DNA of 64,000 nucleotides, taken from positions 18,719,501 through 18,783,500 of the forward strand of contig NC_064437.1 in NCBI RefSeq assembly GCF_023343835.1, given 5' to 3'. The notes under the pieces are model-generated. The model did not search any database. It was not told the origin of the DNA and was given only the letters and a program-made list of their open reading frames with translations. The translations under genes were made by a program, and so were the position numbers. This document shows, one piece after another, positions 33,901-37,412 of this stretch (its first letter is position 1; the number at the start of each line of letters is the position of its first letter). The DNA is from Lagopus muta (Eukaryota > Chordata > Aves > Galliformes > Phasianidae).

Positions 33901-36900
33901 ATGTCTTTATAGTTCAGTATACTTCCGAGTTTTGAAGTATCATTTCTAGAAATCCTTCCTGTATCACAGAATTAATGAGTGCACTTGAAATAGTAATGAA
34001 TCTGCACGTTAATATACTGGAGCAAAAATAATATATCTTTGCCCTAATCCAGCATTAAGAAATTAATTAAGGTTTTAGTATTTGCCTCTCTGATACGTTC
34101 CTTTATCACTTACCCACGTGTTGGGCAATTGAGGATTTCTTAAATGCTCTTTATAAAAAACTGTCCAAAACAACTGTGTGTGTTACCGTCGAAGGTGTAA
34201 GATGTGCACTGTGAATGATGACTAGTGAGGGTTTTCTTTTGGCATTATAATGTAGACAGAGAAATTCAAAGAGAAGTATGCAGAATAATCTGTTTAGTTT
34301 ACTATGGAAAAATGTTTAATTTTAGAATTTTTATACAGGTCCGAAACTGCCGCTTAGTCAGTCTTCTTGATTTGGCCCTGGAAAAGAACTACGTGCGCTC
34401 CAAAATTGCAGAGTACATGAATTACCTCATTGACATCGGTGTAGCCGGGTTCCGGATTGATGCCGCCAAGCATATGTGGCCAGGGGATGTGAAGGCAATT
34501 TTGGATGAGCTGAAAGATCTAAATACGAAATGGTTTCCTGCAGGAGCTAAGCCTTTCATTTATCAGGAAGTAATCTTTATTTTCTTAATTTAACTTTATG
34601 TGCTTGTTTATATAGCAGCAGCATACGCTCAGTTTAGCAACTTAAGGGTGTTTTGCTTCTGATAGTTCTGAGTACCCTTCAGCTTCGATATAAAATGATG
34701 TCAATGTTTAATAATCATAATTTTAAATATCTAATGTGACTGCAAGTCCTTGTTGACATGAAAAATGCGTCAATTGTTTCGGACCTCCTGGCGCTAATTA
34801 ACTGGGAAATTTCATTTGGGATGTAATTTACAGCACTGAAGTAAATGTAAAAATTGAGTTGATTTAAAAAAAAAAAATTAAATTCTGAATTTTAAATTCC
34901 GAGTGCTTAAATTGTAACAGAAGGTATAAATGATGATGATGGTCTGAAACCGCATAGGCAGCATGATTTGGGCAATCCCAGTTTTTTTTTTAATTGTGTT
35001 AGAGTAACTAATAGTAGTATGAAGAGCTAAGGTAAAGGTCTGTCCATAAATCTTATTAAAAGTGTGTGACCTATAAGATCTAATGCCACTAGTGAAATGT
35101 TGCTTAGCTACATTAAGTAAACAAGAAATGGGCTTGCCTGAAATTCTGTGTGCTGAAATCAGAGGCATTGGTGAAAGATGAATGTTTATACTGCCTAGGC
35201 TGTAATAATACAGTACTGATTCGTCACAGAAAGGAAACTGAGGAAGAAAATGAGAAAAAGCTCACAGTTATGCTGAGAGCATAAAAAAGGCTAAAATGCA
35301 ATTTTGAAAGGAAATGAAGTAATATTCTTATCTCGCACACTGACTTTTCCTTAAAACAATGTCTAGGACAGTGTTTTTTACCCATTTGTGTTTTAGCAGC
35401 AAGGAATGTTCTTTTATGTACCAGGTAATTGACATGGGAGGAGAGCCAATCACAGGCAGTCAATACTTTGAAAATGGCCGAGTGACAGAGTTCAAGTACG
35501 GTGCAAAACTGGGGACGGTGATCCGCAAGTGGGATGGAGAGAAGATGGCCTACTTAAAGTAAGGGCGAACGTCCCGCGACCAATGTGAGATAAGCTGGAT
35601 GCGTGACATGAGGGGGGAGAATCAAGTCCTTGTGTTTTTCTCTAGGAACTGGGGAGAAGGCTGGGGCTTTGTGCCTTCTGACAGAGCCCTGGTCTTTGTG
35701 GATAACCACGACAACCAGCGGGGGCACGGGGCAGGCGGAGCTTCCATTCTTACCTTCTGGGATTCCAGGTGAGGAATGGCGGTGTCTGGATGATGACGCT
35801 TACTATTCTCTTTTTTGGTCTGTCGCTTCTTTGGCATCGTTTCTCTTACATGTTCTGTTACGTTTTTTGTCCAACAGGCTTTATAAAATGGCAGTTGGTT
35901 TCATGCTTGCTCATCCGTACGGGTTCACGCGGGTGATGTCAAGTTATCGTTGGCCAAGATATTTTGAGAACGGAGAGGTGAGTTTGTAGTGCTGAAGATT
36001 CTGGCGTATCAAACATAGATGATTTCTCTGTCCTGTGCCGGATCTGCCAGATGGACTTTGGAACCCGAATTTATCTTCTCTCTCGGGATACTCTCTGTGC
36101 ATTTTCCAGTAAGGACTTTAAAAAGTTTTTTTTTTCATTTAAGGATGTCAACGACTGGGTTGGACCACCGAGTAACTCGGATGGATCGACGAAGTCCGTG
36201 ACAATCAATGCAGACTCTACCTGCGGCAACGACTGGGTCTGTGAACATCGCTGGCGACAAATAAGGTGGGAGGAAAACGTAGGAAAAGCAGTGACTCTTG
36301 GGTCACGCGCCTCGTGGCCGTAGAAATCCTGCAGCTACAGCTCTTGTTTGCATTTTCAGGAACATGGTTGTCTTCCGTAACGTGGTAGACGGTCAGCCTT
36401 TCTCAAACTGGTGGGACAATGATAGCAATCAAGTAGCTTTCGGTCGTGGCAACAGAGGCTTCATTGTCTTTAATAATGATAACTGGTGAGTTGGTGGGAT
36501 AGACTGTGTCCCTGGAGAGAAGTGCAGCTCCTCAGCCGCGACTCTGAAAGAGCTTATGTGCTAGGAAGAGGGATTGTCCTTCACATGGAGCACAGAAAAG
36601 TGAATGGGGAATGTCACAAGTGAGGGTGAGGTGTCTGATGTGAGTGTGTGAAGATGTAAGAACTACTTCTTAGCATTTTAAACATTCTATTTCTGTGGTC
36701 TCCCTTGTGTATTTTGTGATTTCCAGGACAGCTACGTATGAGTTCACAGTAGAGAAGACGAGGCTGTGAGCAGGATACGGCCCGGGGGTCTAAGCATTAG
36801 CAGCTTAAGTTCTGGTGGTTATGGGCAGAGAGGGTAGTTTATCACTTCCCTCATCTGGCCCTAGCCAATGTAGTTGGTGCCAATGCAACCGTAATGGTGT

Positions 36901-37412
36901 GAATGATCCCAGTTAGGGGGTTAATTACTTCTGTTTAACCGCATGCATCCTGCTGTAGGAGCTGCCTGTACGCTTTGATTTTCTCCTGTCCTTTCCGGAC
37001 AGCGAGACCAACCGCTACAGCCTGAGCTAGATTCACACGGTTGCGTTCTAGTTGTGAGGGGCTACAAAGGGAGTTTAGAGAAACGGGGCCCTCAGACCGA
37101 GAAATCCCTTGCGATGCGTCATCCTCACAAGTAGCGGAATTGCATCGGGCTCAGCAGTCCTTTGCCTGCTTTGAAATTCCTCTTTTGAAAGCCATGCTTT
37201 AAGCAGTGTACTTTTTGCATAGGTATATGAACGTCGATTTGCAAACGGGGCTGCCTGCCGGTACCTACTGCGATGTTATTTCTGGAGATAAGGAAGGCAG
37301 TGCGTGTACTGGAAAGCAGGTGTATGTTTCTTCGGATGGAATGGCCAATTTCCAGATTAGTAACACTGACGAAGATCCATTTGTTGCAATTCACGTTGAT
37401 GCTAAGTTATAA
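30963..37412 (+). CDS. AMY: Alpha-amylase, gene A (mosaic copy)
   Basis: Ten exons: 30963-31130, 32438-32584, 32872-33069, 34339-34569, 35425-35558, 35646-35768, 35878-35977, 36144-36265, 36360-36485, 37223-37412. They join in phase to 512 codons plus stop, the standard length of secreted vertebrate alpha-amylase (EC 3.2.1.1), a calcium- and chloride-dependent enzyme that cuts internal alpha-1,4 bonds of starch. A signal peptide of about 15 residues ends at CWA/Q. The catalytic residues are present: Asp in [11 protein letters not shown] (exon 4), Glu at the end of exon 4 (YQE), and Asp in [11 protein letters not shown] (exon 6). So are the chloride-site Arg residues (GFRID and RVMSSYRW) and the calcium Asn in INHMCG. 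Exons 1-4 differ strongly from gene B (for example NAEKEDFP for DTGTRDFP), while exons 5-10 are nearly identical. It looks functional; tissue of expression is unknown and the promoter is diverged. Confidence 0.93.
35425..37412 (+). repeat. Segment nearly identical to gene B exons 5-10, inverted copy at 51177-52935
   Basis: Exons and introns both match. Introns 5 and 6 differ by only a few bases, and the proteins differ at about six positions by eye. Similarity begins within the first about 12 bases of exon 5 (GACATG here, GACTTG in B) and ends at the stop codon. Upstream of exon 5 and downstream of the stop the sequences are clearly different. Intron 9 here is 737 bases against 510 in B. This is the pattern of recent gene conversion between inverted paralogues. 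Confidence 0.88.

Follow-up and report, generated by a model that had tools for sequence, protein, structure and literature searches.

The palindromic amylase paralogues Amy-p and Amy-d of Drosophila are kept alike by ectopic gene conversion, with their flanks diverging (PMC3924832), and in birds the Toll-like receptor (TLR) pairs TLR1A/TLR1B and TLR2A/TLR2B have undergone partial conversion independently among lineages, which has been explained by shared binding partners (PMC3125219). Two avian amylase loci, expressed in liver and pancreas and credited to Benkel et al. 2005, are treated in PMC6487185, the main text of which contains neither "gene conversion" nor "recombination". In this study, we analysed a 64,000-nucleotide stretch of the rock ptarmigan, Lagopus muta (contig C8, 18719501-18783500, hereafter the window; genome of 1,026,658,476 bases in 165 contigs). 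It carries two inverted alpha-amylase genes, A and B, and we propose, with a probability of roughly nine in ten, that these are old paralogues whose 3' halves (exons 5-10 together with their introns) have been homogenised by non-allelic gene conversion.

The locus resembles Drosophila Amy as described in PMC3924832 in having inverted amylase paralogues, ectopic conversion and separate flanks. Concerted evolution in Drosophila is, however, confined to coding sequence, whereas in the ptarmigan it covers exons 5-10 with their introns and leaves exons 1-4 old and separate. As in the avian TLRs, one part of the gene is converted and the other keeps its class, and the TLR tracts likewise mostly stop before the 3' untranslated region (UTR); the TLRs, in contrast, are immune receptors, and a ten-exon layout of short and long introns plays no part in their account in PMC3125219. 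Moreover, PMC6487185 treats both the hepatic and the pancreatic amylase of birds as single-copy, whereas two pancreatic-type genes are present in the ptarmigan. A literature search, judged by titles and abstract openings and mostly outside subscription papers, brought up no report of conversion between avian amylases. The phenomenon is known from Drosophila Amy and avian TLR1A/B; the avian amylase case appears new and is probably of wider occurrence than this single window.

Two intact amylase genes in inverted orientation

Amylase A (30963..37412, forward strand; all positions are those of the window) and amylase B (here B1; 51177..55450, reverse strand) stand tail to tail with a spacing of 13.8 kb, and each is an intact alpha-amylase with a 512-codon spliced open reading frame (ORF), ten exons of equal length and GT/AG splice sites at all introns. 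The exons of A lie at 30963-31130, 32438-32584, 32872-33069, 34339-34569, 35425-35558, 35646-35768, 35878-35977, 36144-36265, 36360-36485 and 37223-37412; in B1 the first is 55283-55450 and the last 51177-51366. B1 agrees at 479 of 480 aligned residues with the Lagopus muta record P0017, "pancreatic alpha-amylase isoform X2". In what we take to be the human numbering and the set of catalytic, chloride-binding and calcium-binding residues, D197, E233, D300, R195, N298, R337, N100, R158, D167 and H201 are present in both genes, which points to two animal alpha-amylases (GH13). The N-terminal half of A groups with A-type genes of other birds, suggesting that it belongs to the avian A-type ("hepatic") class, and A and B are taken to be the avian hepatic and pancreatic loci, respectively.

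Upstream of the start codons, read by eye, B1 has the word TATAAAT about 40 bases away (55490-55496), and A has no TATAAAT within 62 bases upstream of its start codon (30901-30962) but an acceptor-like CTCTTACAG at 30906-30914, so that an upstream non-coding exon of A may exist.

The step in identity between A and B

Exon 1 was compared directly exon to exon, as global alignment misplaced it. A and B1 differ at 27/168, 30/147, 62/198 and 59/231 bases in exons 1-4, and at 1/134, 1/123, 2/100, 4/122, 3/126 and 2/190 bases in exons 5-10, giving 178/744 against 13/795 (Fisher p 1e-45). Residue differences are 60/248 and 6/264 in the two parts, synonymous divergence (dS, NG86) is 1.157 and 0.043, and four-fold sites differ at 32/80 and 4/114 positions (Fisher p 8e-11). 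Introns 5-9 share 95-99% identity over aligned bases, and introns 1-4 only 43-52% in a forced alignment. Silent and intronic identity rises stepwise, as for an interlocus (ectopic) gene conversion tract. A first-pass annotation of this DNA had described A as a mosaic from the start of exon 5 at 35425 to the end of the stop codon at 37412, with about a quarter of residues differing in exons 1-4 and about six of some 268 in exons 5-10; the coordinates hold and the counts agree, the second denominator being 264. Its statement that the introns are equally similar holds for the aligned bases of introns 5-9; intron 9 of A, however, carries 227 bases absent in B.

The homogenised block comprises exons 5-10 and introns 5-9, at 35425..37412 (forward) in A and 51177..52935 (reverse) in B1. 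The two copies differ at 37/1759 aligned bases (30 transitions and 7 transversions; Kimura two-parameter distance 0.021) and by 229 indel columns, with no significant difference between exonic (13/795) and intronic (24/964) sites (p 0.24). The 227-base stretch of intron 9, at 36490..36716 on the forward strand with ends uncertain by a few bases, is present in A but not in B1 or in a further gene, B2, described below; a deletion in the B lineage would be the simpler reading. A check for GC bias gave AT in A and GC in B at 22 sites and the opposite at 11 (binomial p 0.08), which is suggestive only.

Both borders are as sharp as the first-pass annotation had claimed. A maximum chi-square scan of the coding sequence places the break at 744|745, the exon 4/5 junction, with 0 of 1000 shuffles reaching the observed value, and the gradual change in identity that would have spoken against conversion is not seen. 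The first mismatch of the block is at 35434 (base 10 of exon 5), the second at 35582 and the last at 37403; identity continues through the stop codon and falls to 21/40 over the next 40 bases. On the 5' side the border coincides with the loss of useful alignment in intron 4 (34570..35424, forward; 855 bases in A and 432 in B1), homology beginning at the exon 5 acceptor. On the 3' side the UTRs of A and B1 beyond the stop are diverged but recognisably homologous, the flank of A (37413..37862, forward) being partly homologous to the 3' UTRs of B1 and of the remnant psi1 (below). About 290 additional bases, at roughly 37430-37717 in the 3' UTR of A, separate two parts that lie side by side in B1 and psi1. 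Exons 1-4 are themselves non-uniform: of the four-fold sites, 3/23 differ in exon 1 and 29/57 in exons 2-4 (p 0.002), and exon 1, being so little diverged at silent sites, may mark a small older tract.

In the presumed human numbering, the last codon of exon 4 is the catalytic Glu233, so that the mosaic junction lies directly behind it and ahead of the remaining barrel, which includes Asp300; the N-terminal half carries D197 and E233, and the C-terminal half D300 and the C-terminal domain. The outcome would be two enzymes with different N-terminal halves and a common C-terminal half, as the first-pass annotation had concluded. With 2.1% divergence the last complete homogenisation in the grouse lineage would be recent, within a few million years if neutral sites change at a rate near 2e-9 per site per year.

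Protein trees across birds

Three homologue searches with representatives of 90%-identity clusters were used (best 120 of 6680, 120 of 200 and 120 of 360 matches), and among the matches listed were 24 bird clusters, namely 23 named birds and P0002, classed as bird by similarity. Trees contained 22 of these 24 clusters, the window's A and B (winA and winB) and four reptile outgroups. P0017, which is the window's own B, and the poor models P0079 and turtle P0122 were left out; P0129 and P0130, with no usable N-terminal half, were omitted from the N-half tree, and P0133 was masked over a stretch with a poor model.

In the N-half tree (exons 1-4, 26 rows), A-type and B-type genes form separate clades (98/95 and 96/92, respectively). 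In the C-half tree (exons 5-10, 28 rows), winA groups with winB (95/88), and two Anas rows are joined by the swan A gene (97/90). Five A-type genes, those of the ptarmigan, P0002, swan, Agelaius and cuckoo, fall within a B-type clade of 17 rows (97/97). Approximately unbiased (AU) tests on the C-half rejected single clades of the ten A-type rows (p 4e-59), of the three Galloanserae A rows (p 5e-7) and of winA with P0002 (p 0.0075); on the N-half they rejected winA with winB (p 8e-5) and a joint A and B clade of the four galliform rows (p 0.0026). Among 13 full-length named rows, the A-type genes again form one clade in the N-half (95/94), which is rejected in the C-half (p 6e-7). By these protein trees and AU tests, paralogues appear closer than orthologues inside the tract and the reverse outside. 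The comparison with related birds that the first-pass annotation had suggested points the same way at the protein level, N-halves grouping by class and C-halves by lineage. Recent conversion between inverted paralogues is strongly favoured because the step is found in silent sites and introns, the borders are sharp, and the two halves sort in these different ways; conversion is the mechanism that we infer.

Exon 10 and the direction of transfer

Eight C-half sites separate seven rows with an A-type exon 10 from 12 B rows, and all eight fall in exon 10. The B-type state is found at 8/8 of them in winA, P0002, swan A and Agelaius A, and at 6/8 in cuckoo A. A single clade of winA and the rows with A-type exon 10 is rejected (p 0.001), and mapping exon-10 type on the N-half tree requires at least three changes among the ten A-type rows. 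Since A-type exon 10 is already found in the tinamou, and in the shorebird, seriema, cormorant and sparrow rows, A seems to have been overwritten by B-type sequence: at least one transfer in its ancestry probably ran from B-type to A-type, and B-type sequence may have entered A-type genes repeatedly. P0044 (Chloebia gouldiae), retained in the trees, has a B-type N-half and an A-type exon 10, which may reflect either a reverse transfer, from A-type to B-type, or an error in the gene model.

Identities between A-type and B-type partners were calculated over shared residues for exons 1-4 without the signal peptide, exons 5-9 and exon 10, and are given here in percent in that order. They are 76.8, 97.5 and 98.4 for the grouse A/B pair, 81.8, 96.0 and 91.9 for P0002/Gallus, 77.6, 96.5 and 93.5 for Cygnus/Anas, and 78.1, 93.6 and 93.5 for Agelaius/Haemorhous, with exon 10 at 66.1 in Ammospiza/Haemorhous (78.2, 94.1, 66.1), the tinamou pair (77.3, 88.1, 66.1) and Phalacrocorax/Sula (90.4, 95.5, 66.1). 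By these identities exons 5-9 look to have been homogenised more widely than exon 10. The 90.4% of the last pair, cormorant and booby, is based on 167 residues and does not include exon 3; conversion may there have extended to exon 4. The at least three changes in exon 10, together with the C-half rejections of the Galloanserae A rows and of winA with P0002, suggest recurrent partial concerted evolution, arising independently in several lineages and leaving part of the gene untouched.

A second pancreatic-type gene beyond the window

The first-pass annotation had taken the inverted copy B as the partner of A. B1 is indeed inverted but is not the sole candidate, as a near-identical gene lies just beyond the window: a word from exon 8 has three genomic occurrences, in A, in B1 and at a site 7.2 kb beyond the window end, which belongs to B2, a second pancreatic-type gene on the reverse strand with exons between 70213 and 74486 (window coordinates extended), 6.2 kb past the window end. 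B1 and B2 lie in a tandem duplication of about 18.5 kb, copy 1 at 42080..60699 holding the 3' part of psi1, B1 and psi2, and copy 2 running from 61413 to about 79751 (window coordinates extended) and holding B2; 42080-50747 matches 61413-70077 and 51040-60699 matches 70076-79751. Divergence between the copies is patchy, from 0 to 4% per 500 bases. B1 and B2 encode an identical protein with one silent difference, and differ at 9/4274 gene bases against 206/14002 in the remaining unit (p 1e-14), so that they too look to have been homogenised. Inside the tract they differ at 1/1759 sites, and B2 has the state of B1 at 37/37 sites at which A and B1 differ.

Alternative explanations

Selection might have favoured a pancreatic-type C-half in the A-type enzyme, with the N-half shielded by its specialised function. 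The N-half classes do stay separate across birds, and a sequon for N-glycosylation at mature residue 75 (NET in A) occurs in nine of ten A-type rows, being absent from P0002, and in no B-type row. However, the introns are homogenised as well, and borders that lie where homology ends need no selection; we consider selection an unlikely, though not negligible, main cause.

Reciprocal crossing-over between the inverted genes, inverting the 14-kb spacer and swapping the 3' halves, is geometrically possible with A and B inverted and 13.8 kb apart. A swap would nevertheless leave the 3' halves as unlike as before, whereas they are about 98% alike and both carry a B-type exon 10. The first-pass annotation had left "conversion or exchange" open; its first term is supported, and reciprocal exchange as sole cause is very improbable. 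Equally improbable is an assembly artefact in which a copy of B was wrongly placed as the 3' half of A. Assemblers err at near-identical tracts, and the cluster also contains the 18.5-kb tandem duplication. On the other hand, A is separated from both B1 and B2 by the 37 substitutions and 229 indel columns, B1 and B2 themselves differing at a single site of the tract; A, B1 and B2 all lie on one contig of an assembly made from HiFi reads at an average coverage of 57.75x (PMC10320755); and a similar protein pattern is found in Anseriformes and in the P0002/Gallus pair. Purifying selection alone has next to no probability, for although the C-half of A and B is mostly more conserved than the N-half relative to turtles and alligator, the introns and four-fold sites of the block are as alike as the remainder, and the silent and intronic step refutes it.

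Evidence weighing against conversion

Several observations speak against the conversion reading or weaken it. In the ptarmigan itself, the mismatches between the two copies of the block are mildly clumped (p 0.015), which, together with the low silent divergence of exon 1, suggests overlaid events of different age; and the attempt to polarise the last grouse event with B2 yielded no informative site among the 37 differences, so that its direction is not given. Beyond the ptarmigan, the evidence consists of proteins predicted by automatic gene models, some of which skip exons; except in grouse, the A/B pairs compared come from different species. WinB was included in the B class used to choose the eight exon-10 sites, the turtle and alligator rows have the B-like state at several of these, suggesting that this state is partly ancestral, and the tinamou pair reaches only 88.1% in exons 5-9.

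The groups for the AU tests were partly picked after the trees had been seen, and the signal of exons 5-9 is modest: a single A-type clade has p 2.6e-6 with 28 rows but 0.023 with the 13 full-length rows, and a clade of the five A rows that retain their own exon 10 has p 0.016. The C-half trees match the species tree poorly. Emu and tinamou B-type rows stand beside winA and winB in the C-half tree (92/86), exons 5-9 group Strigops with winA and winB (91/97) and leave winA with winB alone unsupported, and the Calidris A-type row falls outside all other birds in exons 5-9 (96/93); with 13 rows, the C-half tree puts the tinamou A-type row in a polytomy with grouse and swan rather than outside. 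The placements of emu, tinamou and parrot may reflect chance likeness within a conserved region.

Proposed mechanism

Gene conversion depends on pairing between long stretches of similar sequence. Exons 5-9 of the ptarmigan genes and their four short introns (87-166 bases) form a continuous 1.06 kb, intron 9 has 510-737 bases, and introns 1-4, of 205-1307 bases, are without a well-aligned partner. Under conversion, exons 5-9 would be a compact stretch of about 1.06 kb similar enough to keep pairing and converting, while introns 1-4 would be too diverged, leaving exons 1-4 as isolated islands of fewer than 240 bases that rarely convert, so that the 5' flanks and exons 1-4 of A and B would evolve separately. 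The tract would stop where homology ends, at the exon 5 acceptor on one side and at the stop codon, ahead of the diverged 3' UTR, on the other. The longer intron 9 would have exon 10 converted in fewer lineages, only where intron 9 is still alike, and inverted orientation would be no obstacle, as in Drosophila Amy.

More tentatively, and with somewhat less than even odds in our view, the pattern may extend to birds in general as half-gene concerted evolution that has gone on since before the neognath orders split, with exons 5-9 as a shared module, a paralogue-specific N-half, and gene architecture, rather than selection on the protein, as the factor that sets which half of the enzyme may diverge. 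Exon 10 would then be part of the module in some lineages only, and the short introns would keep exons 5-9 pairable.

Implications for avian amylase studies

Under model M8, PMC6487185 reports sites 367 and 455 of the pancreatic and 477 of the hepatic enzyme among those positively selected; it also describes a "convergent" T455D. If the chicken numbering matches, three of the eight M8 amylase sites of that study would lie in the half exchanged between paralogues. T at 455 is found in three A-type rows and a single crocodilian row but is absent from all B-type rows; inferring convergence or selection there therefore first requires that conversion be excluded. Full-length orthology calls and single-gene trees of avian amylases would mix two histories. 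As a natural experiment, the locus may also show which portions of duplicated genes are able to diverge, under a putative architectural rule that short introns convert and long introns shield, and the two ptarmigan pancreatic-type genes with the same protein are relevant for copy-number work.

Other features of the cluster

Psi1 consists of two parts on the forward strand. Its 5' part (40025..42044) retains pieces of a B-type amylase, from the 5' flank and exons 1-3, with exon 1 broken, and its 3' part (48694..48950) holds an exon 4 piece, the end of exon 10 and 3' UTR; exons 5-9 were not found at 48694..48950, and most of exon 10 is missing there too. The exon 4 piece and the exon 10 end meet directly within 48694-48824, where the two share a short word. 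Psi2 (57563..58739, forward) is a B-type remnant 75-80% identical to B1. A second tract covers the exon 2-3 region of psi1 (40937..42044, forward), 93.9% identical to B1 at 53835-54928 (reverse), with 79.5% identity over 40025-40674, lower values in between and an abrupt rise near 40937; given this second tract, the entire cluster appears to be prone to non-allelic conversion.

An Rfam search gave no matches at gathering thresholds. Among ten of the 341 window ORFs listed, a Pfam search gave a single match, to Vitellogenin_N, in an ORF at 45966-46439 (reverse; E 1.1e-5, 24.6 bits, cut-off 24) that lies between the psi1 pieces, in the duplicated unit. A six-frame genome search with B returned at least 40 exon-level matches, all those listed being on contig C8, with 37 in the cluster, two near 21.49 Mb and one near 23.79 Mb. 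The latter three are decayed pieces, exons 2-4 with stops (C8:21484001-21494000) and exons 2-3 (C8:23788001-23795000), which, at about 2.7 and 5 Mb from the cluster, look like old relics.

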